In this document: positions 963 through 51,115 of the stretch, one piece after another | Layout: each line of letters opens with the position of its first letter | How positions within the stretch are numbered: position 1 is the stretch's first letter | Notes under the pieces: model-generated | Seen by the model: the letters and a program-made list of their open reading frames with translations, nothing else | Databases searched by the model: none | What the model was told of the DNA's origin: nothing | Program-made: the position numbers and the translations under genes | NCBI GenBank assembly: GCA_011051755.1 | Contig: DRKN01000172.1 | Location: forward strand, 1-54,412 | Source of the DNA: Gammaproteobacteria bacterium | GTDB taxonomy: Bacteria; Pseudomonadota; Gammaproteobacteria; SZUA-152 | DNA length: 54,412 nt | Reading direction: 5' to 3'

Positions 963-1775
963 ATGATGCCAGGCAATACTATAAAGCGACTTTTTTCAAC
1001 CTGTGCACTTATTTTCGCATTTGCAGGATTGCCCTTCGAGCAAGCTCACGCAAATTTTGATATTGGCACAATAATTGACGAAGCAGGACAACAGCGCATG
1101 TTGAGCCAGCGTATTGTCAAGGCCTACTTAATGCTGGCTGCAGACATCAACCCTGTTGAAGCACAGAAACAGTTGGACAGTAGTATTGGGAAATTTGAAC
1201 AAAATCTCTCCAAGCTTCTCACCTTTGCACCCAATGATAAAATAAGAAGTGAACTGGAGAAGGTTGAAAATCTGTGGATGCAGTTCCGCATGACCGCCCT
1301 CTCAACAACCTCTAAAAAAACCGCTACTAAATTTCTACAGGATGGTGAAACTTTACTGCGACACTCCCAGGGCATTGTCGATAAAATTACTGAATTTTCG
1401 GGAGTAAAAGACGCCAGAATCGTCGCCATCTCCGGCCGCCAACGCATGCTTTCCCAACGGATTGCAAAGTATTATATCGCTTATTATTACGGCCTGAGAA
1501 CAACGCAGATTATTGAGTCCTTTAACAAGGCGGTGCAGGAGTATGAAACCGCATTGAAACAACTGATGAAACATAAAGGAAACACCAATGATATCCAAGC
1601 AAAGCTAAAGAAGGTCAATTCTCAATGGACTTTCTCCAAGGTAGGTATAAAGAATTTTCCAAAGGAAGGAGAACTTGTACCGTTTATCATTTCTGTGACC
1701 ACTGAGAGTATGCTGGTAAAAATGCATGAAATTACCAGACTATACGCCAAGCTGCTCAACAAACAGATGAAGTAA
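963..1775 (+). CDS. secreted protein with two PilJ-type sensor domains
   Basis: A 270-residue protein with an N-terminal signal peptide (a hydrophobic stretch ending near QAHA) and two copies of the helical PilJ/type IV pili chemotaxis-sensor domain (the family of PF13675). Each copy carries the hallmark QQRMLSQRI / RQRMLSQRIAKYY motif, about 125 residues apart. In PilJ and NarX-like sensors this helix bundle is the periplasmic part of a transmembrane receptor. Here no second membrane segment and no cytoplasmic output domain follow, so it is probably a free periplasmic sensor or binding protein. The start at 963 is chosen because AGAGGA lies 7 bases upstream; an in-frame ATG at 948 lacks a ribosome site. 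The next gene is convergent. The ligand is unknown. Confidence 0.8.
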   Translation: MMPGNTIKRLFSTCALIFAFAGLPFEQAHANFDIGTIIDEAGQQRMLSQRIVKAYLMLAADINPVEAQKQLDSSIGKFEQNLSKLLTFAPNDKIRSELEKVENLWMQFRMTALSTTSKKTATKFLQDGETLLRHSQGIVDKITEFSGVKDARIVAISGRQRMLSQRIAKYYIAYYYGLRTTQIIESFNKAVQEYETALKQLMKHKGNTNDIQAKLKKVNSQWTFSKVGIKNFPKEGELVPFIISVTTESMLVKMHEITRLYAKLLNKQMK

Positions 1776-1851
1776 GAAGGTAATAGCTCTCCCTTGTCCA
1801 CACTGTCGGTGAGCACGGCGCCTGGCTGTCAAACACTGTGGGTCAATGCCG

Positions 1852-2577
1852 TTATTCGGCTCTGCCGCGTACTCTCTGCTTGAATTCGGTGACTCGTGGA
1901 TCATCCTTTTTTATTTTCACGACCTTTGTCTCACCGGTATCCACACCGACATAGGGGGCTGCTGCCGCCGCCATAATGGGCATGAGCGCACGCAGGTCGT
2001 TGGAGGGCCCGGTTGATGTAATTTCGCTTTTCCATAACGTTTGCATGTCTCTTGGCTTGCCGCCAACCTGGTGGCGTTTAGCCTCAAGCGTGACAAAACG
2101 GGTAAACACCGTATAACGACTGGTGCCGACAGACATGCCCACGAGACGCTGGCGCGAGGGGGTGGTAACGGTGCTCGTTACCGTCGACGTCGTTTTCCCC
2201 TTTTTGTCTTTCTTGGTTTCCGTATAGACAATCGTATCGCCCCCCTCCCATTCATAAATCGGTGTCGTAGTAGTGTATTGTGTCGTACGCCCAGGACTCA
2301 CACCATAGCTGAAATAAATGGCAATGGGCGCATCCTTGTCGGTATTTTCATGATAGCCATGATCCTGTAAAACGGCCTGAAAATAACGGCTGAATTCACG
2401 AAAATGGAGATCATTGCGTGATGTTCCTCGCATACCGCTGAGCCATGTGTAATGTTTGGCGGGGATATCCTTCTGTCCAACGATCGAGTCAACTGAAATC
2501 TTCACGCTTTGCGTGCCACAAGCCGTTAGGCCGACGACCACCAGCAATACAAGAGAGACAAGTCTAAAAATTTGCAT
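1852..2577 (-). CDS. predicted outer-membrane lipoprotein, DUF4136-like
   Basis: A 241-residue lipoprotein. The start at 2577 puts AGGAG nine bases upstream and gives a clean lipobox, LTACG, after a Leu/Val-rich signal. The mature protein has an AIYFSYGVS strand, a Thr-rich linker (TTTTPIYEWEGG, then KTTSTVTSTV) and a C-terminal Lys-rich tail. The strand order and the LWKSEITSTGPSNDLRALMP block resemble the DUF4136 family of small lipoproteins of unknown function, but the match is by eye. It is single and convergent with the PilJ-type gene, 76 bases away. Confidence 0.7.
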   Translation of the reverse strand: MQIFRLVSLVLLVVVGLTACGTQSVKISVDSIVGQKDIPAKHYTWLSGMRGTSRNDLHFREFSRYFQAVLQDHGYHENTDKDAPIAIYFSYGVSPGRTTQYTTTTPIYEWEGGDTIVYTETKKDKKGKTTSTVTSTVTTPSRQRLVGMSVGTSRYTVFTRFVTLEAKRHQVGGKPRDMQTLWKSEITSTGPSNDLRALMPIMAAAAAPYVGVDTGETKVVKIKKDDPRVTEFKQRVRGRAE

Positions 2578-2858
2578 CAGCGTGTGCTCCTGCTTGCGGG
2601 GTATTGAAGATATCCACCAAAACTCTATCAATCAAGTATAGACAACTATGGAGCTAAGAAATTCTATAATCCTGCTGTTATCATTTTTCTTCGCAAGGAA
2701 TCAGCGCAGTACCGTCAAAGGCATCGCTCAATGCATTGAAGATATTATGCCCCTGCTTTTTAAGTATAGAGAGGTAGCCGCGTAGGCGCATAAAAAAACG
2801 TGCCCATCCTGTTCTTAGTTTTAATCAATCCAACATGACCGCCAAATCTTCTACAAAA

Positions 2859-5207
2859 TCAATCTTTCGGCGGCGGCGGTGCCAACACTTCACGCGAACC
2901 ATTCGACTGCAATTCACCCACAACCCCCGCCGCCTCCATTTCCTCCACCATCCGTGCGGCGCGGTTATAACCAATTTTCAAGCGCCGTTGCACACCGGAA
3001 ATAGACGCCTTGCGCGTCTCGGTCACAATACGCACGGCATCGTCATACAGCGGGTCGGACTCACCTTCGCTGTCGCCGCCAGTGCCGGGCATACCGCCCA
3101 TGTCGGTGCCAGCGGGTGAACCTTCCAGAATCTCGTCGATGTATTCAGGCGTACCACGGCTATGCCAATCCTTGACTACACGGTGCACCTCGGCATCCGA
3201 CACAAACGCGCCGTGCACGCGCATGGGGATAGCGGTGCCGGGCGGCAGATAGAGCATATCGCCATGGCCAAGCAGTTGTTCGGCGCCGCCCTGGTCGAGG
3301 ATGGTACGCGAATCCACCTTGGCGGAAACCTGGAAAGCAATGCGGGTGGGGATGTTGGCCTTGATGAGGCCGGTGAGCACATCCACCGAGGGACGCTGGG
3401 TGGCCAGGATCAGATGCATGCCGGCGGCACGGGCCTTTTGCGCCAGACGGGCAATGAGTTCTTCGATCTTTTTGCCCACCACCATCATCATGTCGGCCAG
3501 CTCGTCGATCACTACGACAATCTGCGGCATGCGCTCGAGGTGACGAATTTCGTCCGGCTCGATGGGGACATAGAGCGGATCTTTAATGGGCTCACCGGCG
3601 GCTGCGGCGTCTTTGACCTTGCGATTGAAACCAGCCACGTTGCGCACACCGAGGGCGGCCATCAGCTTGTAACGGCGTTCCATTTCGGCCACGCACCAAC
3701 GCAGGGCATTGGCCGCCTCTTTCATGTCCGTGACCACCGGCGCCAACAGGTGCGGAATACCTTCGTATACCGACAACTCAAGCATTTTGGGGTCGATCAT
3801 GATCATGCGCATGTCATCGGGCGTGGCGTTGTAGAGCATCGACAACACCATGGCGTTGATGCCCACGGACTTGCCGGAGCCGGTGGTACCGGCCACCAGC
3901 AGGTGCGGCATCCTGCCCAGATCGGTCACCACAGGGCTGCCACCGATGTCCACGCCCAAAGCCATGGTCAGTGGTGATTTCTTGCACGCCTGTTCATAGG
4001 CGGAAGACTTGATGACCTCGGACAAACGCACCATTTCACGGACTTCGTTAGGAATTTCCAGGCCTACCGTGGGCTTGCCGGGGATCACTTCCACCACCCG
4101 CACGCTGATGGCCGACAGGGAGCGCGCCAGATCCTTGGCCAGATTGGTGATGCGGCTGGCCTTGACACCGGGCGCGGGGGCCAGTTCGTAGCGGGTGACC
4201 ACCGGGCCGGGGTGCACCGCGACCACTTCCACTTCGACACCGAAGTCGGCCAGCTTCAGTTCAACCTGGCGGGAGATCGCCTCCAGCGCCGCAGCAGAAA
4301 CATCGGACTTGCGGTCGTCGGCAGGATCGAGCAGGGCCAGTGGCGGCAGTGAGCCTTCCACCGGGGCATCGAACAGCGGCACCTGACGCTCTTTTTCTGC
4401 ACGCGCGGAGACCACTGGCGCCTGTTTGATCACCGGTTCGATGCGCGGCGGCAGACGTTTGGCGACCTTTTGTTTGCTGATCTTGACCGACGCCTCGCGT
4501 TTGCGGCGCGCACGGCGGGCCTGCAGGTTTTCGCGCAACAGCCAGATGCGCTCGCGAATACCGCCCAGGATATTCAGAGTCAGGCGACCAATGCCGTCCA
4601 TCAGCCAGAACCACGACAGGCTGGTGAGCAGGGTCACACCGCTGAGAAACAGGGCGACCAGAAACAGGGTGCTGCCCACCGCATTGAGCACGCCCACCAT
4701 GCCGCCGCCAACAACGTCGCCCAACACCCCGCCGGAGCCCACCGGCAGGTGTGAAAAATCGGCGAAATGCAGCGCCGCCAGGCCGGTGCCGGCGCCCAGA
4801 GTGAGGATGAAACCAACGCAGCGCAGCGCACCGTGGCGCAGATCGAAGGGAATCTGCTGCTTGCGCCCGGCGTACAGCAGCCAGCCGGCGTAGGCCACAC
4901 CGAGGGGAATCAGGTAGGCCAGATAGCCGAACAGGTACAGCGACACGTCGGCGAACCAGGCGCCGATCACGCCACCCGCATTGGCGATATGATCCGTGCT
5001 TTCGCTGTGTGACCAGGCGGGATCCGCAGGGTCATAGGTGGCCAACGCGGCAAACAAAAACAGCGCCGTGGCGCTGAAGACGATCAGCGCGCCTTCGCGC
5101 AGACCGCGCACCATGTGGCCGGCCAGTGGCATGCCGTCTTTGGGCTGCGTGGCGCTGCGAGTCGCCAGTGATTTTCGGGTCAGTATCTTTTCTGTTGGCT
5201 GTGCCAA
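2859..5207 (-). CDS. ftsK: DNA translocase FtsK
   Basis: A 782-residue septal DNA pump that moves chromosome termini and activates XerCD at dif. Order of parts: four to five membrane helices in the first 210 residues; a short Arg/Lys-rich linker; the RecA-like motor with Walker A ([15 protein letters not shown], near residue 440) and Walker B ([13 protein letters not shown], near 565); and the C-terminal winged-helix gamma domain ([19 protein letters not shown]) that reads KOPS sites. The linker is much shorter than in E. coli FtsK (1329 residues), matching the SpoIIIE-size forms of many gammaproteobacteria. It stands alone; the usual downstream lolA is absent. Confidence 0.97.
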
Positions 5208-14342: not shown

Positions 14343-15182
14343 CTATTTTTTACCTGTTGCTTTTTTACTTGTTAGTATATATATAGTGACATCGGCTTCT
14401 GAATAACTTTGAGATACATAATCTTTTTCCACAGCCACGCCCATAGCGCTCAAAATCTCCAATACCGCATCAATTTTATCAGGCTCCAAGCCTGGCCTAT
14501 ACCGGATATTTACAAAATATTGCTCGCCATCATACTTTAAATTATTGACCAGCCCGCTGACAACAGAGCCAAGAGAGTAAACATCCGAACTTTTTGAGAT
14601 GCCAGCCATCAAGCCCTTAACACGAAATGCAACATTCTTCAAATCCGACACCCCAACAGGATAGTAAATACGGATATAGTTTACTTTATCACCACTATAT
14701 TTTGCGGCTTCATATTCAAGCGAGCCGGCATAAGCACTCGGGACAAGGAATGAGGTTAGGCTTATTTCCTGATTAGCATCCACCTTGCTTGAAATAGAGA
14801 ATGGCGAATTTAAAAATACCAGTGAAAAAATAGCTAGTGAACCGCTGGCTTGAAGCCATTTAATGTTGATATTCATTGACCCGGTAAATCCAGCCGAAAA
14901 TGCAGCAGCCGCCAAAGAACCTGAAAGCAATAGTATGAATTTATAGTTCTCCGGCTGATCAATATTCATTCTTTCCGCGGCAAATACTTCTACAACAAAA
15001 ATAAAAAATATCATTCCTATTCCCACTAAAAATGACACTCTAGGGTGAATAGTAAATATTTTCTCCCATTCATTAGAGATTATTTCAGAAATAGCATCTC
15101 TTTTTCCTTTCTCTTTAAGGTTTTCATCCACGGATACTTTAAAAACCTGCTCAAGGGACTGGTCTGATATTTTGTATTTCAC
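14343..15182 (-). CDS. unknown low-GC membrane protein
   Basis: A 279-residue protein not recognised. A GTG start at 15182 is preferred (AAGGGA about nine bases upstream) over a longer TTG frame. After a polar N-terminus come three hydrophobic segments: VSFLVGIGMIFFIFVVEVFA, ILLLSGSLAAAAFSAGF and SLAIFSLVFLNSPF. A soluble C-terminal part follows, with YIRIYYPVGVSDLK and YFVNIRYRPGLEPDKIDAVL, ending KKATGKK. The C-terminal part looks like an alpha/beta domain, perhaps periplasmic. The codons are AT-rich, unlike the flanking genes. It lies 81 bases upstream of the L,D-transpeptidase on the same strand, so the two may be co-transcribed. Confidence 0.6.
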   Translation of the reverse strand: MKYKISDQSLEQVFKVSVDENLKEKGKRDAISEIISNEWEKIFTIHPRVSFLVGIGMIFFIFVVEVFAAERMNIDQPENYKFILLLSGSLAAAAFSAGFTGSMNINIKWLQASGSLAIFSLVFLNSPFSISSKVDANQEISLTSFLVPSAYAGSLEYEAAKYSGDKVNYIRIYYPVGVSDLKNVAFRVKGLMAGISKSSDVYSLGSVVSGLVNNLKYDGEQYFVNIRYRPGLEPDKIDAVLEILSAMGVAVEKDYVSQSYSEADVTIYILTSKKATGKK

Positions 15183-15670
15183 GTTTCCATTCCCTTGTAA
15201 TTTGTTGCCATTCTGTAATTGGCGCCAGATTACAATATTATTTAATATATTTAACAAGGGATAGCAAACAGCGCCTCATCCTCAAGAGGTATTATCGAAG
15301 TGGATGAGTAATTTTTTGGGCGGGACTTTAACCCGTCAGACATGCAACCGATGACGGCGTTCGACCTGCCTCTGCCATCCAGTCGCCTTTTGATTTTTTC
15401 GCCGATACCGCGCGATTGTCCGATTCGGCCCATTACAACTGAATCTCAGCTACTTCCATGCTTGTCGTGCGCCCATTAAGACGCAGAATCATTAGGATAT
15501 CAAGAGGGAGGGGGGAGCATGGTAATAGGCCACAAAAATGCACCGTTGTCTGCCCAAACAAGCACATGGATACCCCCTCTCCCGAAACGGGGGGCGTTCA
15601 GATTGGGGAATGGTGGCTCGCTCTGCGTGCGGGCAAATCGTGCGCTAGTAAATACACACCACCGTTGCGC
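15183..15670. other. intergenic stretch without a recognisable gene
   Basis: A 60-residue minus-strand frame (15251-15433) shows no domain or ribosome site. The right half contains a GGGGAATGGTGGCTCGCTCTG word of the kind found in dispersed repeats. No promoter or RNA gene is recognised. Confidence 0.5.
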
Positions 15671-31768: not shown

Positions 31769-34387
31769 TCAGGCAGCAAGCTGACGGGCCAGGGACTCCA
31801 GACTCTCGCGATCATGCAAAATGGTCTCCCAGAGACCGACCACGCAATGGGCATCGATGCCAAGCCGTTTCACCACCTCATCCAGCCGTTCAGCACGAAG
31901 CTCATCACCGACCTCGTCGTCCAGCAGGATATCCACCACCCGCAGCAGGTAAACGTAGTCCGCAAAGTCCCCGTCATAATCCACGCTATGATGCCGGGCA
32001 ACCGCTGTAATCACCTCTTCGGGCAATTGCCAGCTTCGCAGCAATTGCCCACCAATGTACGCATGACTCATTCCCAGCACACGTTTTTCGATGTCCACAA
32101 GTGGCGTCTCCGGTGACTGCGATTGGCAGTCCGCAATGATGTCACAAGCTTCCGCAAACTGGCTCGCCAGGAACAGATGGCCGATATTACGCAGCAGGGC
32201 CGACAGATAGGCCAGCCCGGGTTTGACACGCTTGCCTATGGGGCGCTGTGAGGCCAGCGCCTGGGCCATGGATCCGGCGGCCACCGCCTTCCACCAAAAA
32301 CCTTCACGCGCCAGCATGGCCTTGCCGCTGGCCGGCAGAGATCCCATAGCCACCAGCCCCAGTGCGATGCCCATGACGCCGTCGTAACCCAATACGGTGA
32401 CCACCGCTTTTTCGACGGACTCAATACGCCCCTGAAAGCCAAAAAACGGGGCATTGGCGTAGCGGATAATCTGTGCCGCAAGGGCGGGATCACTGGCCAC
32501 TATGTCGCTCAGTTCCCGGACATGAGCGTCCGGATCCTGCATCAGATTCAGCAGTTTTTGCCCCACATCGGACATCACCGGCAAACCGTCACTGGTTTTG
32601 AGCGCCGCAGAAATCCGTTTTTTCCAGGGGGCATGAATATCGATAACCTCCACCACAACGGAAGACTTTCCTTTTAAATGCCCCTTGCGCAGCATGACGG
32701 TCATTTCATCAGCAGGTAGTGGCCTGCTGTAATAATACCCCTGCATATAAGTGCAATTCAGTTTGCGTAAATAGGCCTCCTGCCCGGCCCCCTCCACGCC
32801 TTCCGCCACCGTTTCCAGCCCCAGAGAATGGGCCAGGTGAACGATGGAGTTGGTAATTGCCGCCGATTCACTATCGACCATGACATCCTTGACGAAACTG
32901 CGGTCGATTTTCAGCGTATCGATGGGGAAACGCTGCAAATAACTGAGTGAGGAATAGCCCGTACCAAAGTCGTCGATGGCGATGCGCACACCGAGATCCC
33001 GCAATGTCGTCAGAATCTCAATGGTGAGTTTGGGGTTGTTCATGGCGGCGCTTTCGGTAATTTCGAGTTCCAGCCAACGCGATTCCAGACCGGTTTCCTG
33101 CAACACCCCCCGCACCATGCTGAGCAGATTATTCTCATCATCGAACTGCAATGCGGAGAGATTGACCGCCACCCGCACCGGCGCCAGGCCCCGCTGTTGC
33201 CAGGCTTTGTTCTGGGCACAGGCAGTCCGCAACACCCATTCCCCCAAGGGAATAATCATGCCACTGGACTCGGCCAGGAGAATAAAATCCAGTGGCGGGA
33301 TCATACCCAGCTCGGGATGCTCCCAGCGAAGCAACGCCTCCAGAGCTTTCACCGTACCGGTCTTCGCGTCGAGGATAGGCTGATAATGGATAGAAAATTC
33401 ACCTCGCTCCATAGCATGACGCAGATCGGCCTCCAGAGTGAGGCGACGGGTCTCTTCCGCATGAATCTTGGCATTGAAAAAGCGCAGACAGGCGCGTCCC
33501 TGCTGTTTCGCCGTGTACATCGCGGCATCGGCATGTTTCATCAATAAACAGGCATCGTCGCCATCACTGGGGTAGATGGCAATGCCGATACTGGGCGTGC
33601 AGGCCACCCGTTGCTCTTTCAGAGCGATGGGCTGCGACAGGGATTGCAGGATCTGATGCGCGGCCTTTTCCGCATTGGCCGGGGAACCGATTCCCGTCAA
33701 CACACAGCCAAACTCGTCCCCGCCCAGGCGGGCAAGCATATCGCAACCACGCACACCGGCTACCAGCCGCTCACTCACCTGCTTCAACAGATGATCACCG
33801 GCATCATGCCCGTAGGTATCATTGACTGACTTAAAGCGGTCGAGGTCGATGAACAGCACCGCCAGTTTTTCCGTATTGCGTTCTGCCTGCAGCAGGCTGG
33901 CGCTCAGACGATCACGAAACAGGGCGTGATTGGGTAAACCCGTGAGAGGATCGTGGGTTGCCAGATGTTCCTGATCCAGCCGGGCCGCAGCCAGTTCGCC
34001 ATGTAACTGGCGACGTTCGAGGGTAAATCCCAGCGTACGCACCAACAACTGGGGATTGGTCTCGCCGCGCAGCAGATAATCCGCCGCACCAGCCGTACAC
34101 AGGGCCTTGGCTCGGGCCTCTTGCACCGGATCGGCCAGCAAGATCAGGGGAGTATCAGGCAGATACCGATCCTGCCATCGCTGTAAATTCTGACTTTTGT
34201 CGCCAAACCCCATCATATCGGCCACCACGATATCGAAGCGGCCAGCTTCAAGCATGGACTCCGCCGCCGCCAGATCAGCCGCATGCACCAGTCCGAAACA
34301 ACCCTTTCCTACACTGCGCAGAGCATCGACGACCCAGCGGACATTGCTGTCAATCAGCAGGATTCTGGCAGAAACTTCAGGTTTCAT
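31769..34387 (-). CDS. REC-GGDEF-EAL-HDOD signalling protein
   Basis: An 872-residue cytosolic protein joining four domains. Residues 1-125: receiver-like, with Asp57 (VVADMM) but without the acidic pair (LLIDSN) and with the Lys motif changed to LLRGE, so probably not phosphorylated. About 145-300: diguanylate cyclase with intact LGGDEF and an RGCD inhibitory site five residues before. About 320-565: phosphodiesterase with EALLRW and DDFGTGYSS. About 600-790: HDOD (SDVGQKLLNLMQDPDAHVREL, ASDPALAAQIIRYANAPFFG). Both c-di-GMP activities look intact. GGAG precedes the ATG. It ends convergently to the Sel1 gene. The fixed joining of an HDOD domain behind EAL is uncommon. Confidence 0.93.
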   Translation of the reverse strand: MKPEVSARILLIDSNVRWVVDALRSVGKGCFGLVHAADLAAAESMLEAGRFDIVVADMMGFGDKSQNLQRWQDRYLPDTPLILLADPVQEARAKALCTAGAADYLLRGETNPQLLVRTLGFTLERRQLHGELAAARLDQEHLATHDPLTGLPNHALFRDRLSASLLQAERNTEKLAVLFIDLDRFKSVNDTYGHDAGDHLLKQVSERLVAGVRGCDMLARLGGDEFGCVLTGIGSPANAEKAAHQILQSLSQPIALKEQRVACTPSIGIAIYPSDGDDACLLMKHADAAMYTAKQQGRACLRFFNAKIHAEETRRLTLEADLRHAMERGEFSIHYQPILDAKTGTVKALEALLRWEHPELGMIPPLDFILLAESSGMIIPLGEWVLRTACAQNKAWQQRGLAPVRVAVNLSALQFDDENNLLSMVRGVLQETGLESRWLELEITESAAMNNPKLTIEILTTLRDLGVRIAIDDFGTGYSSLSYLQRFPIDTLKIDRSFVKDVMVDSESAAITNSIVHLAHSLGLETVAEGVEGAGQEAYLRKLNCTYMQGYYYSRPLPADEMTVMLRKGHLKGKSSVVVEVIDIHAPWKKRISAALKTSDGLPVMSDVGQKLLNLMQDPDAHVRELSDIVASDPALAAQIIRYANAPFFGFQGRIESVEKAVVTVLGYDGVMGIALGLVAMGSLPASGKAMLAREGFWWKAVAAGSMAQALASQRPIGKRVKPGLAYLSALLRNIGHLFLASQFAEACDIIADCQSQSPETPLVDIEKRVLGMSHAYIGGQLLRSWQLPEEVITAVARHHSVDYDGDFADYVYLLRVVDILLDDEVGDELRAERLDEVVKRLGIDAHCVVGLWETILHDRESLESLARQLAA

Positions 34388-35886: not shown

Positions 35887-37947
35887 TCAATCACGGTCGT
35901 CAGCCTGATAGGCCCTGTCACCATCACGCAAAAAGAGACCGCGTGGCAAGATGATTTCTTCATGCCCTCCCAGGCCCTGGCGAATCTCGGCCATGGCAAA
36001 ATCCTCGATACCGATGATCACGGGCTTCATTCGTACCTGTCCATCCTGCAACACAGCCAGATACACCTTACCTTCCCGGTTCAGCAGGGCTTCAAAAGGC
36101 ACCTTGATGGCATGAGGGTTCCAGGCGGTACGGATCTCCGCATCCACTGTCTGCCCCGGACGCAGATCAGGGGCCTGCGCACCCAGGCTGATAAACACCT
36201 TCACCGGGCCGGCATTTGCTTCCTGCCCGGTCATCGTATCCAAGCGGGTGACCGTCTCCTGCCATTCCAGGCCCGGAAAGGCATCACTGGTCACCAACAC
36301 CACTTGCCCCACCCGAATACGCTGGCTGTCGGCAGCATCCACGCTCACTTCAATTTCACCCTGTGCCTCGCCGGCAAGCACAAACAGGGAGTCCGTCGGC
36401 ATCACCCATTGGCCGGTTTCAGCCTGGCGCTGTATTATCGTGCCGGAAAAAGGTGCCGTGATATCCTGTTTTTCCGGCACCTGCGTGGCACGCCGCGCCG
36501 CTCCCATGGCCGCGCTGGCGCGCGCACGCGCGGCCATCAGTTTCATTTCGGCATCTTTCACGAATCGTTCCGCCACAGCGCCTTTCTCATGGGAGCGGCG
36601 CAATTGCGCCCAGGTACGTTCTGCCCGCTCGATATCCTCACGCGCAGCGGCCAGCTCCGCCTGTATCTGTTCCAGGTGCGCAGGCAACTCACGATCATCC
36701 AGGCGCGCCAATAACTGCCCACGCTGCACCCTGTCCCCCTGATTCACCAATACCCTTGTCAGGCGACCGGTGCGTGAGGGCCGGATCATCACCCTCTGTC
36801 GACTGACGATGTTGCCGGGCACCACGACGGTCTGATAGATCTCCCCCATTTCAGGGAAGGTGGTCTGCACCGCCAACTCTGTACTGAAAAAAAACGACCC
36901 GCCCTTAAAAACGGCAAAACCCAGTGCCGCCAGCACCATCACCACCAGCAGAGTACGACGGGAAAACAGCCTCTGCAGCCGGTTTGCTGGACGCGACGGC
37001 ATCTCATCGAAGATGAATGGGTTATCGCCATGGCGACTGTCATCTGCACCCTGCTGGATGTTTTGGCGGTCTCTACGCCTGCGGCCCGGGGACGGCTCGG
37101 GATCAACGATAATCTCCCTCTCTCTGTCGTATTCGACAGGCTCTGCTGCACCCCGCCGAAACCCGTCTTCCACATCCGGCGTGGCGGTCTCCGGCGCGGC
37201 TTCCGGAGTCGTATCGATCACCGGCTCAGGCATCGGTGTGGAGACAGGGCGTGACGCCGTGTCACTGGCCACGACCCGCTCTATCATGCCGGCCTCCGGG
37301 GCTACTGTTGGCGCTGGCTCGGCCGGCACAGTATTTTCACTGGATGCCTGTACGTCCGCCCTCTCCTGCGGTGGGTTTTCCGCTGAGAGACCCGTGACCT
37401 GTAGCAGCGGAATGGTCTTGTTGTCTTTGGCCTCGGCAACCGGGGCCGTCTGAACCGGCGTCACCAGTGGGACATCCACGGATTCACGGTGACTGGCTTG
37501 CGGCTGAGTCGCTATGGATTCGTGCCTTTCAAGCAGCAGACGGCGGATGTGGCCATCCAGCTCTCCGGCATCGACCGGCTTGCTCATCACCTGATTGGCC
37601 CCGGCATCGTAGGCCTTGGCCAATGCCTCGGCATCGGTGGAGCCGGTAATGACGATAATCGGCAATTGACTCAGCCTGGGTTGCCCGCTCTGACGCAGGG
37701 TGCGGATCAGATCATCACCATCCATCCCCGAGGAGGAAACTTTGAGATCGGTGAGCAATAAATCATAGTCCCCCTGAATCAGGGCGACAACGGCGGGTTC
37801 CGCAAACTGAAAATAGTCTATCTGATAGCCACAGGGCTCCAGCATGCGGCGCATAACGAAGGCGGCGGTGCGGCTGTCATCGACATAGCACAAACGTGCG
37901 GTAGGCTTCTCTGCCCCCGGCGGGTGAGTGGAGAACCTCTCACTCAT
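35887..37947 (-). CDS. receiver domain fused to an RND/HlyD-type periplasmic adaptor
   Basis: A 686-residue fusion not known to me as a described type. Residues 15-140: receiver domain with every phosphotransfer residue (YVDDS, Asp67 in LLLTDLK, Thr101 in VITGS, Lys123 in MSKPVD). 140-320: Pro/Glu/Ala-rich acidic linker ending in a basic patch (GRRRRDRQ). Near 330-350: one membrane helix (LLVVMVLAALGFAVF). 360-686: a complete adaptor, with biotinyl-lipoyl halves (VRPSRTGRLTRVLVNQGDRV-like block and ITAPFSGTIIQRQAETGQWV), a coiled coil of about 75 residues, a beta-barrel and a membrane-proximal domain. The receiver would be cytosolic and the adaptor periplasmic. No pump gene is adjacent; a PhoPQ-like pair lies 542 bases upstream on the same strand. 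Start taken at ATG 37947. Confidence 0.88.
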   Translation of the reverse strand: MSERFSTHPPGAEKPTARLCYVDDSRTAAFVMRRMLEPCGYQIDYFQFAEPAVVALIQGDYDLLLTDLKVSSSGMDGDDLIRTLRQSGQPRLSQLPIIVITGSTDAEALAKAYDAGANQVMSKPVDAGELDGHIRRLLLERHESIATQPQASHRESVDVPLVTPVQTAPVAEAKDNKTIPLLQVTGLSAENPPQERADVQASSENTVPAEPAPTVAPEAGMIERVVASDTASRPVSTPMPEPVIDTTPEAAPETATPDVEDGFRRGAAEPVEYDREREIIVDPEPSPGRRRRDRQNIQQGADDSRHGDNPFIFDEMPSRPANRLQRLFSRRTLLVVMVLAALGFAVFKGGSFFFSTELAVQTTFPEMGEIYQTVVVPGNIVSRQRVMIRPSRTGRLTRVLVNQGDRVQRGQLLARLDDRELPAHLEQIQAELAAAREDIERAERTWAQLRRSHEKGAVAERFVKDAEMKLMAARARASAAMGAARRATQVPEKQDITAPFSGTIIQRQAETGQWVMPTDSLFVLAGEAQGEIEVSVDAADSQRIRVGQVVLVTSDAFPGLEWQETVTRLDTMTGQEANAGPVKVFISLGAQAPDLRPGQTVDAEIRTAWNPHAIKVPFEALLNREGKVYLAVLQDGQVRMKPVIIGIEDFAMAEIRQGLGGHEEIILPRGLFLRDGDRAYQADDRD

Positions 37948-38489: not shown

Positions 38490-39863
38490 TTATCCCTTTG
38501 GCCCCGCTGGCAGCCAGACATGCACCGCCGCACCGCCCAGCTCACTTTCACCAATTTCCAACGTGCCGCCGTACAACTGTACAATATCCCGCACGATGGA
38601 AAGACCGATGCCATGTCCGGCAATATCCGAATCGGCCCGGCGACCGCGCTGCATGACATAGCGCACCATTTCGGAAGGAATGCCCGCACCATCATCCTCG
38701 ACATGGATAAACAGATCCATTTCACCGTTGCGCGGCCCGGCCTTGGAGCAGGCCAGCACATGCACCTGTCCCCGGCACCATTTAAAGGCATTGTCCGTGA
38801 GGTTGCCAACAATCTCCACCAAATCGCCCTCATCACCGGAAAACTCCAGACCGGGCTGCAATTCAGTTACCGTTTTCACTTCCTTGTCGGCATATACCTT
38901 GTGCAGACCGGCCAGCACTTTCTCCACCACAGCCTGTACCGCGATAGGCGCGGACAATACCGTCCAGCCTGAAGTCGCGGCACGCCGTAGTTGATAGCCC
39001 GTGAGCTGATTCATGCGCTCCACCTGTTCTAACACAATGTTGGGCAGTTCAGTTTTACCCTCACGGTTTTCCGCCGCGCTCTGTAGAATCGCGAGGGGGG
39101 TTTTGAGACTATGGGCAAGGTCGCCGAGGGTGCGCCGGTACCGCTCCAGGTGCTCCCGTTGGTGGGAAAGCAGGCCATTGATATTACTGGTCAGTGTCTG
39201 CAATTCGGGTGGATAACGTCCCTTCATGCGTGTCTGCATACCCTCTTCAATGGCGCCCAATTCATTGGCGGCATGTTTCAACGGCAGCAATCCCCAGCGC
39301 AGAATGCCCCACTGCACCGCCAGCAGCAACAGCGCCACCCCCCCCAGCGTCCCCCACAGACTGCTCCGGAAGGCGGCGATCCGGGCATCGAATTCAGTCA
39401 TGTCCTGTGCGACGCTGAAGGTATAATCCTGTCCGGGATCGGGGGAATCACTCCAGACCACGCCGTAACTGAACAGATAAAGCCGCTGACCATCGGGCAG
39501 GGTAATCTGCCGGCTGCTCTCAGCCAGACGGGGAAGATTTTTTGTAAAAGGGATCGACATATCCTTGATGGATTCCGAGCGCCACAGCCATTTTCCATCA
39601 TTGCTGGAGACCTCGCCAAAGAGACCGGATGCCGGATCGTAAAAGCGTGTGTCCGGTAATTCCTTGTCCATGATGAGACGCCCGTCATCACCCATCTCGG
39701 CAGCGGATATCAGGGCATAGACATGCCCGAACATGCGCTCTTCCATGTCCTGTTCAATACTGTCGTGATAGATTTTTTCGAGGGTGATCTCGGCGAGCCC
39801 GAAGAAACTGAAAAGCACCGCACTGGCCGCAATCAGCACACGGGTATTCAGGGAAAGGGGCAT
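38490..39863 (-). CDS. PhoQ-like sensor histidine kinase
   Basis: A 457-residue inner-membrane kinase. A first helix (VLIAASAVLFSFFGLAEI), a periplasmic sensor of about 140 residues, a second helix (LWGTLGGVALLLLAVQWGIL) and HAMP region precede the H-box LGDLAHSLKTPLAILQSA and the ATP-binding domain (GNLTDNAFKWC, DDGAGIPSEM, GHGIGLSIVRDIVQLYGG). H-box and N-box are those of PhoQ. The sensor does not show the acidic Mg2+-binding patch clearly, so the signal is unknown. Its ATG overlaps the regulator stop (TGATG). Confidence 0.9.
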   Translation of the reverse strand: MPLSLNTRVLIAASAVLFSFFGLAEITLEKIYHDSIEQDMEERMFGHVYALISAAEMGDDGRLIMDKELPDTRFYDPASGLFGEVSSNDGKWLWRSESIKDMSIPFTKNLPRLAESSRQITLPDGQRLYLFSYGVVWSDSPDPGQDYTFSVAQDMTEFDARIAAFRSSLWGTLGGVALLLLAVQWGILRWGLLPLKHAANELGAIEEGMQTRMKGRYPPELQTLTSNINGLLSHQREHLERYRRTLGDLAHSLKTPLAILQSAAENREGKTELPNIVLEQVERMNQLTGYQLRRAATSGWTVLSAPIAVQAVVEKVLAGLHKVYADKEVKTVTELQPGLEFSGDEGDLVEIVGNLTDNAFKWCRGQVHVLACSKAGPRNGEMDLFIHVEDDGAGIPSEMVRYVMQRGRRADSDIAGHGIGLSIVRDIVQLYGGTLEIGESELGGAAVHVWLPAGPKG

Positions 39864-40561
39864 CAGGTGCTGCCGCGGTTCTCAGAGGTCGGTGTCAAGG
39901 CAAACCGATAGCCCCGGCCACGCAGGGTTTCTATGACGTTGAGGACGCCGTCGGGATCGAGCTTGCGACGCAGACGGCCAATGAAGACCTCGATAACATT
40001 GCTGTCACGGTCAAAGTCCTGGTCATAGATATGCTCGGTGAGTTCGGACTTGGACACGACCTGACCCGCACGCAAGACCAGATACTCCAGCACCCGGTAT
40101 TCATAGGCAGTCAGTTCGATGGATTTTTCATCGACAATCACCTGCTGGGTGCCGATGTCGATATGCAGTGAACCGAAAATAAGCTCTGACTGGGTCCAGC
40201 CGGCAGATCTGCGCATGAGCGCCTTGAGACGCGCCAGCAATTCCTCCATGTGAAAAGGCTTGACCAAATAGTCATCGCCGCCGGCTTCGAGACCTTCGAC
40301 CTTATCCTGCCAACGATCCCGGGCAGTCAGGATCAGGATTGGAAATGCCTTGCCTTCACTGCGCAAATGGCGGATCAGGTCGATACCGGACAGCTTGGGC
40401 AGGCCCAGATCCACCACCCCCACATCGATGGGATATTCCCGTCCCAGGTACTGCCCTTCTTCACCATCGGCAGCCTGATCCACAACGAAGCCCTCTTGCC
40501 GCAAACGGGTGGCAAGCTCTTCACGCAAACGCAATTCGTCTTCGACGACCAAGACACGCAT
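39863..40561 (-). CDS. PhoP-like OmpR-family response regulator
   Basis: A 232-residue regulator: receiver domain (LVVEDELRLREEL, GVVDLGLPKLSG with the phospho-Asp, ILTARDRW, LVKPFHMEELLAR) and a winged-helix DNA-binding domain (IELTAYEYRVLEYLVLRAGQ, IEVFIGRLRRKLD, ETLRGRGYRF). It is first of a two-gene operon with the kinase. It resembles PhoP most among OmpR-type regulators. A perfect palindrome 90 bases upstream could be its own operator. Confidence 0.92.
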   Translation of the reverse strand: MRVLVVEDELRLREELATRLRQEGFVVDQAADGEEGQYLGREYPIDVGVVDLGLPKLSGIDLIRHLRSEGKAFPILILTARDRWQDKVEGLEAGGDDYLVKPFHMEELLARLKALMRRSAGWTQSELIFGSLHIDIGTQQVIVDEKSIELTAYEYRVLEYLVLRAGQVVSKSELTEHIYDQDFDRDSNVIEVFIGRLRRKLDPDGVLNVIETLRGRGYRFALTPTSENRGST

Positions 40562-49676: not shown

Positions 49677-49813
49677 TTAGTACTCCGTCAATATAACCTT
49701 GACGGAGTACGACCCTCCACGCCCACAAAACAGACTGCCCCCCTGACCAATACCTCGCACCTCAGGATCACTTTTTGCTATGCTCCCCGCAAGCCGCCCC
49801 GGGAGTTATCTGT

Positions 49814-51115
49814 ATGCCAAATGGACGATCCGTCCTGAAGAAAACCGTGCCCCTGCTATTGATACTGGGGCTTGCCGTCGGCGGCGCCATTCTGCTGGTC
49901 GCCACAAAACCCCGCACACCGCCACCAGAAAGCGAGGAAAAGGTCTGGGTGGTTGCCACGCAGACCGCAACCCCCGCACAACACTTTCCTGTCATCACCT
50001 TGTATGGCCGTATTGAATCGGCACGCTCGAGCCGCTTGACCTCCTCGCTGAGTTCGGAGGTCATCGATGTCCTCTGCAAGGAAGGTGAACGGGTGAGCAA
50101 GGGGCAAGCCCTGGTGCGCCTGGACGAACGGGATGCACAGTTACGCCTGCAACAGCAAAGCGCGGAACTGGCGGAAATCCGCACCCTGATCGCCAGTGAA
50201 ACACACCGCTTCGACTATGACCAACGCATATTGGCGAGTGAACGCCAATTACAGGCCCTCGCCCAACAGGAAGTAAAACGGGCGCAGCGCCTCAAAGAAG
50301 GCAAGCTTGCCGCCCAGGCACGCATCGACGAGGCACAACAGGTTAAATTGCGCCAGGACATCGCCGTGGCCCAACGCCAGCTCGCCGTACAGGATCACGA
50401 AGCCCGCCTGGCCCGTTTGCAGGCGCAACTGAAAAAGGCCGAGTCGCTACAAGCGCTGGCCAAACTCGATATTGAACGCAGCCTGCTCAGCGCCCCCTTC
50501 GACGCCCGCATCACCCAGGTGCCCGCCTCACCCGGCAATCGTACGCGGCCCGGCGAAGTGCTGGTGGAGCTTTACGCGTTGGACGCCCTGCAAGTCCGCG
50601 CACAGCTCCCCAACGCCAAACTGGCCGCCATCGAAACGGCGCTGAATAATGGCCATCCGCTCACCGCATGGGCGCTTACGGGCACTCGGCAGCGATTGGA
50701 ATTGCAGCTCAGCCACCTTGCCGGTGATATAAAACCCGGCCGCGGCGGACGCGATGGTCTGTTCGAACTAAAAAACCCGGCCACGGATCCGGCCATCGGC
50801 GACATCGTGTCGCTGCAACTCCAGTTGCCAGCGGTCGACAACAGCCTCACCCTGCCCCGCAAGGCCCTGTATGGCAATGACCGCATCTACACCATCAGCG
50901 ATGGCCGGCTGAAGGGCCACCGGGTCGAGCGTCTCGGTGAAACGCTCGCCAACAATCCCGGCTCGCCCTTCGATACCCTGTCCAGCGCCGAAAATACAAA
51001 CTGGCTGCTGGTGCGCAGCGCCAGCATCACACCGGGCAGTCTCATCGTCACCACCCAACTGCCCAACGCCGTGGAAGGCCTGAAGGTGCGTGAGCGGCGC
51101 ACATCGGCCCCATGA
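49814..51115 (+). CDS. RND efflux periplasmic adaptor
   Basis: A 433-residue membrane-fusion protein. N-terminal membrane anchor (LLLILGLAVGGAILLVA), first lipoyl half (SSEVIDVLCKEGERVSKGQALVRLD), a coiled coil of about 100 residues, second lipoyl half (LLSAPFDARITQVPASPGNRTRPGEVLVEL), barrel and membrane-proximal domains. GGGAG lies eight bases before ATG 49814. It is followed by its pump gene; the stop is 22 bases before the pump start. Substrate not predictable. Confidence 0.92.
   Translation: MPNGRSVLKKTVPLLLILGLAVGGAILLVATKPRTPPPESEEKVWVVATQTATPAQHFPVITLYGRIESARSSRLTSSLSSEVIDVLCKEGERVSKGQALVRLDERDAQLRLQQQSAELAEIRTLIASETHRFDYDQRILASERQLQALAQQEVKRAQRLKEGKLAAQARIDEAQQVKLRQDIAVAQRQLAVQDHEARLARLQAQLKKAESLQALAKLDIERSLLSAPFDARITQVPASPGNRTRPGEVLVELYALDALQVRAQLPNAKLAAIETALNNGHPLTAWALTGTRQRLELQLSHLAGDIKPGRGGRDGLFELKNPATDPAIGDIVSLQLQLPAVDNSLTLPRKALYGNDRIYTISDGRLKGHRVERLGETLANNPGSPFDTLSSAENTNWLLVRSASITPGSLIVTTQLPNAVEGLKVRERRTSAP

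Follow-up and report, generated by a model that had tools for sequence, protein, structure and literature searches.

A receiver domain joined to a MacA-type periplasmic adaptor in a gammaproteobacterial order, and its probable retention after loss of a MacB-like exporter

Regulation of efflux pumps is thought of mainly as transcriptional. A more direct arrangement is raised by one gene in the window, the whole stretch of 54,412 nucleotides analysed here (contig DRKN01000172.1, assembly GCA_011051755.1, order SZUA-152 of the Gammaproteobacteria), where one reading frame joins a response-regulator receiver, through the membrane, to a periplasmic efflux adaptor. An earlier note, made from the sequence alone, had proposed that such a receiver could act directly on a tripartite pump. 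The questions are whether the join is real, which pump, if any, the protein serves, and what the receiver does there. The features concerned are these:

35887..37947, minus strand: receiver-linker-transmembrane-HlyD/MacA-type adaptor fusion, 686 aa (ORF, Pfam, relatives, AlphaFold2)
37510..37899, minus strand: receiver domain, residues 17-146, with D23, D24, D67, T101 and K123 (Pfam PF00072, AlphaFold2, residue check)
36964..37509, minus strand: disordered Pro-rich linker, residues 147-328 (pLDDT below 50 for 148-325, composition)
36886..36960, minus strand: single transmembrane helix, residues 330-354, Arg-rich on its N-terminal side (AlphaFold2, hydropathy)
35905..36876, minus strand: periplasmic adaptor with membrane-proximal, beta-barrel, lipoyl and hairpin parts, residues 358-681 (Pfam PF16576/PF13437, Foldseek)
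36466..36690, minus strand: alpha-helical hairpin, residues 420-494, with Q-S-A and not R-L-S at tip positions 448/452/459 (AlphaFold2, alignment)
38490..39863, minus strand: PhoQ-like histidine kinase (profile scan, synteny)
39863..40561, minus strand: PhoP-like OmpR-family response regulator (profile scan, synteny)

The frame starts at an ATG at 37947, with TTG 37953 as an alternative start of the same ORF. In its N-terminal part, residues 21-134 score 63 bits against Pfam Response_reg (cut-off 30.2), and all the catalytic residues that the earlier note had listed are there; across 22 aligned sequences D23, D24, T101 and K123 never vary, and a single sequence lacks D67. The AlphaFold2 model, built with 22 homologues, gives the receiver alternating strands and helices; its whole-protein pTM is 0.36, low owing to the linker, and confidence is good for each domain. 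The one membrane helix of the note is also found, in the model and as the sole strong hydropathy peak (Kyte-Doolittle 2.06, second-best window 1.02). The linker, described as long and acidic, is indeed long, about 180 residues, and disordered, but just mildly acidic (32 D/E, 19 K/R and 25 Pro in 182 residues). The adaptor half matches HlyD_D23 (residues 374-597, 66.9 bits) and HlyD_3 (residues 496-598, 64.1 bits) in Pfam, RND_mfp TIGR01730 in NCBIfam (178 bits against a cut-off of 94.9), and the AcrA, MacA and MexA structures in Foldseek; the MacA equivalog NF008606 is missed, with 47 bits against 342, and no PDB chain among the 60 matches listed covers the receiver and adaptor halves together. 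The protein is thus a member of the MacA-type periplasmic adaptor family with an N-terminal cytosolic receiver added. The nearest receivers in its own genome look like those of REC-GGDEF and REC-HD-GYP proteins, by domain names read directly from the sequences.

The join is not peculiar to this assembly. Each of the 24 genomes of the order carries the fusion gene, and in 23 of them the contig spans both ends of the gene and holds them in a single uninterrupted frame; the contig of the remaining genome, G013, begins inside the gene, so that the receiver end is out of view. No stop codon interrupts the joined frame in any relative in these 24 genomes. A frameshift joining two separate genes, which the note had named as its possible refutation, was rejected together with other assembly artefacts, since independent assemblies carry the identical join. 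Relatives were also found in four further gammaproteobacterial families, and a phylum-wide search, weak since it scored two candidates per genome, returned no additional member. One contig (L082, from contig C12 of G201) is mostly 93-99% identical per protein to a G019 contig, yet is assigned to another family; it is probably mis-binned and was left out of the distribution argument. In a tree of adaptor domains the receiver-bearing members form one clade (support 96/99), separate from plain adaptors, with several long branches that make the branching within the pseudo-receiver group uncertain. Because all of them group in that clade, the fusion would most simply have arisen once.

The relatives also indicate a pump partner. 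Directly 3' of the fusion gene, and likely in the same operon, a gene for a MacB-like ATPase of about 227 aa is found in 14 of the 24 genomes, and in 13 of these it is followed by one for a permease (MacB_PCD/FtsX, about 415 aa); in the fourteenth, G011, the contig ends at the ATPase gene and part of a permease is found on a different contig. Spacing between adaptor, ATPase and, where present, permease genes is mostly 6-46 bp (range 6-140) in the order, and family f101 has the same arrangement with overlapping genes. MacB is the best NCBIfam model for both ATPase and permease, at 265 and 206 bits, below cut-off. In E. coli stimulation of the MacB ATPase requires the cytoplasmic region and transmembrane helix of MacA (PMC5985334), so that a receiver at this place would be well positioned to tune that activity. 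A MacA-type adaptor would accordingly have gained an N-terminal cytosolic receiver and, in most lineages, would work as the adaptor of a MacB-like exporter whose ATPase and permease are encoded separately just downstream. The receiver would lie below the membrane on a long flexible tether, adjoining the exporter ATPase, and its state would most likely tune pump assembly or ATPase stimulation, by phosphorylation where the Asp is present and by plain docking where it is missing. Since the linker is flexible or disordered over some 180 residues, tethered docking is favoured over rigid gating. The earlier proposal of direct pump control therefore remains plausible as post-translational tuning, tied to an exporter in the relatives, and is less favoured as rigid gating.

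The relatives also differ in the receivers that they carry. Locus L087 (6306-10970) encodes a protein of 1554 aa in which six receivers, each having N or S in place of the phospho-Asp, precede the adaptor, with ATPase and permease next; L088 and L090 have two Asp-less receivers apiece, and in L086, L089 and L091 the adaptor that goes with this exporter is a plain one lacking a receiver. Because the receivers of L087, L088 and L090 are without the phospho-Asp, phosphorylation would seem dispensable for the family as a whole, and docking may be its common denominator. The L090 protein (1165-4281) also bears, after its two receivers and adaptor, a C-terminal rhodanese-like domain (one stretch in Pfam).

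Other genes recur around these loci. HDOD genes lie directly upstream in three f101 loci, L083:7129-8169 (called HDOD by similarity alone), L084:5810-6682 and L102:2535-3425, and another is near the L087 fusion gene (14418-15305); in the window a GGDEF-EAL-HDOD protein is encoded downstream of the fusion gene (31769-34387). In most of the order a divergent neighbour of the fusion gene (L049:10374-11552 and equivalents) encodes a kelch-repeat protein that has a hydrophobic stretch at its N-terminus, and in f101 such a gene also lies nearby; in the window's genus no such neighbour was seen, and the 537-bp gap upstream of the window gene holds no kelch remnant.

A cognate MacB-like ATPase and permease were not found in the window's own genome or genus. 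A search for the permease orthologue found none in the seven genomes of the genus (G000-G006), nor in G017, G019 and G020, an absence that is to be read over ten incomplete multi-contig draft assemblies, the best rated 100% and 98% complete. The best reading of this pattern is that the cognate ABC exporter was lost in the window's genus. The sole MacB-like system found in the genome, a paralogue on contig C206, was rejected as the cognate exporter, being roughly 30% identical and having its own adaptor gene. The RND pump at 51090 (51138 in the earlier note), there suggested as partner, likewise has its own adaptor gene, at 49775, and service to it was judged unlikely; the partner in relatives is the MacB-like ABC exporter. 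An ARAGORN tmRNA call at 50252-50671 on the minus strand overlaps the RND adaptor gene on the opposite strand and is likely false.

Changes in the adaptor itself accompany the missing exporter. The RLS motif at the hairpin tip is the site of docking to the outer-membrane channel (TolC). In a register placed by eye against AcrA, every one of the 14 exporter-bearing rows retains the arginine, as do 3 of the 9 exporter-less ones. Pump-bearing members of the order keep the R only and f101 keeps R and S; in the window protein the three positions read Q448, S452 and A459, so that every TolC-docking residue is replaced. The "full" adaptor of the earlier note is thus complete in its fold and altered at its tip. 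A codon model comparing the exporter-less genus with its pump-bearing sister genus, in which synonymous sites are near saturation (dS about 2), gave omega values of 0.301 against 0.093 for the hairpin, 0.197 against 0.072 for the rest of the adaptor and 0.083 against 0.024 for the receiver. By codon bootstrap the corresponding ratios are 2.6 (1.4-4.3), 2.5 (1.8-3.5) and 1.8 (0.95-3.5), the receiver interval including 1, unlike those of both adaptor regions. The kinase, used as a control, showed no relaxation (0.063/0.075 in one run, 0.059/0.120 in another). Part of the relaxation is protein-wide, since receiver omega rises somewhat too; the adaptor half in the window's genus is specifically relaxed, and the receiver stays well conserved, its omega of 0.08 being similar to that of the neighbouring adk. 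An independent exporter loss, at L057, shows the same division, with an adaptor branch of 0.66 against 0.12-0.23 in sisters and an ordinary receiver branch (0.19 against 0.09-0.20); in the exporter-less L051 and L055 acceleration is little or absent. Finally, the fusion protein of one genus member, G003 (L056:8090-9787, 565 aa), has lost lipoyl and hairpin in frame with both ends kept, a deletion known from a single draft genome.

These data bear on two other readings. The protein might be a phospho-gated adaptor still serving a non-cognate exporter here, such as the C206 paralogue or an RND pump, which its receiver would open or close; its complete fold with MacA/AcrA-type matches agrees with this, and an adaptor omega of 0.2-0.3 still denotes purifying selection and a half not free of function, which might point to an unrecognised pump partner. 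We nevertheless consider this reading unlikely, as the C206 exporter and the RND pump at 51090 each have an adaptor gene of their own, the RLS tip is gone, a member of the genus does without lipoyl and hairpin, and the linker is long and disordered. Alternatively, the whole gene might be drifting towards a pseudogene after exporter loss, as the roughly 2.5-fold relaxation of the adaptor half and the G003 deletion could suggest; the frame is free of stop codons in all seven genus members and the receiver is held about as tightly as adk next door, and decay is very improbable.

What the receiver answers to may be reflected in its neighbourhood. The kinase/regulator pair that the earlier note had placed upstream on the same strand is there and is PhoPQ-like only, both proteins missing the equivalog cut-offs (PhoP 227.5 against 336, PhoQ 214.6 against 497). 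Wherever the contig reaches far enough, at 17 loci of the order, the kinase orthologue is found upstream on the same strand, and in G018, G019 and G020 the PhoP-like regulator is on another contig while the kinase is still beside the fusion gene, a persistence that suggests a functional tie between the two. With the receiver's catalytic residues conserved, the fusion could then be a membrane-tethered phosphate sink or insulator for this pair, the kinase phosphorylating both receiver and regulator and the periplasmic part anchoring or sensing. Helix alpha-1 is the main kinase-docking helix, however, and that of the receiver (DELRLREELATRL) is quite different from that of the kinase's own PhoP-like partner (DSRTAAFVMRRML), so that direct phosphotransfer from the neighbouring kinase is doubtful. 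Kinase and fusion genes are moreover in separate operons, 404-2191 bp apart and often with a divergent gene between, and in f101 a scan of part of the fusion gene's neighbours recognised no kinase. A sink or insulator role consequently appears improbable.

The reading that we prefer, with a probability of roughly 55%, is that the fusion was ancestrally a receiver-regulated MacA adaptor of a MacB-like exporter and is an orphan membrane-tethered receiver in the window's genus. Orphan status is favoured because the cognate exporter was not found and the hairpin tip is degraded. The exporter would have been lost and the fusion kept, its receiver and membrane anchor still under selection next to the PhoPQ-like pair, its adaptor half drifting and the TolC-docking tip gone. 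The window protein would then most likely serve at the envelope for docking or as a phosphoryl acceptor, and not as a working pump adaptor. More broadly, we hold tentatively, at a little under even odds, that these proteins are an undescribed class of exporter adaptors with built-in cytosolic receivers, either a single intact one or between two and six that lack the Asp. Cytosolic signalling would act directly on a MacB-type exporter through them, and some lineages would have kept the protein beyond the pump, as a transmembrane signalling protein. A receiver covalently joined to an adaptor would offer a direct path from signalling to pump activity, and the family provides natural experiments, in that one adaptor/exporter type occurs with an intact receiver, with Asp-less receivers or with none, as well as in the lineages that have lost the pump and kept the fusion.

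No description of a receiver-HlyD fusion was found in the part of the full-text literature covered, in keeping with the earlier note's belief that the architecture is undescribed; the domains are known, and their joining appears to be a new form of MacA-type adaptor. The closest known system is MacAB-TolC of E. coli and Aggregatibacter, whose MacA has the same single N-terminal transmembrane helix and the same membrane-proximal, barrel, lipoyl and hairpin domains. As there, a MacB-like exporter is involved (encoded downstream in the fusion relatives) and a PhoPQ-type pair is at hand, MacAB expression being PhoPQ-regulated in E. coli and Salmonella (PMC5985334). Unlike MacA, the fusion has a cytosolic receiver and a long linker, its ATPase and permease are separate genes, and in the window's genus it lacks both the exporter and the RLS tip residues. 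The receiver shares fold and five catalytic residues with those of CheY, PleD and RpfC type, whereas its output is a transmembrane periplasmic adaptor and not an enzyme or DNA-binding domain. L087, L088 and L090 resemble the aspartate-less receivers described elsewhere (PMC4395418), from which they differ in being joined to an exporter adaptor, and the Asp is still there in the window protein. In BceAB-BceRS modules, too, a MacB-like ABC exporter is genetically tied to a two-component system (PMC5985334), but BceAB has no adaptor protein, whereas here an adaptor is present, with the receiver built in as the signalling link.
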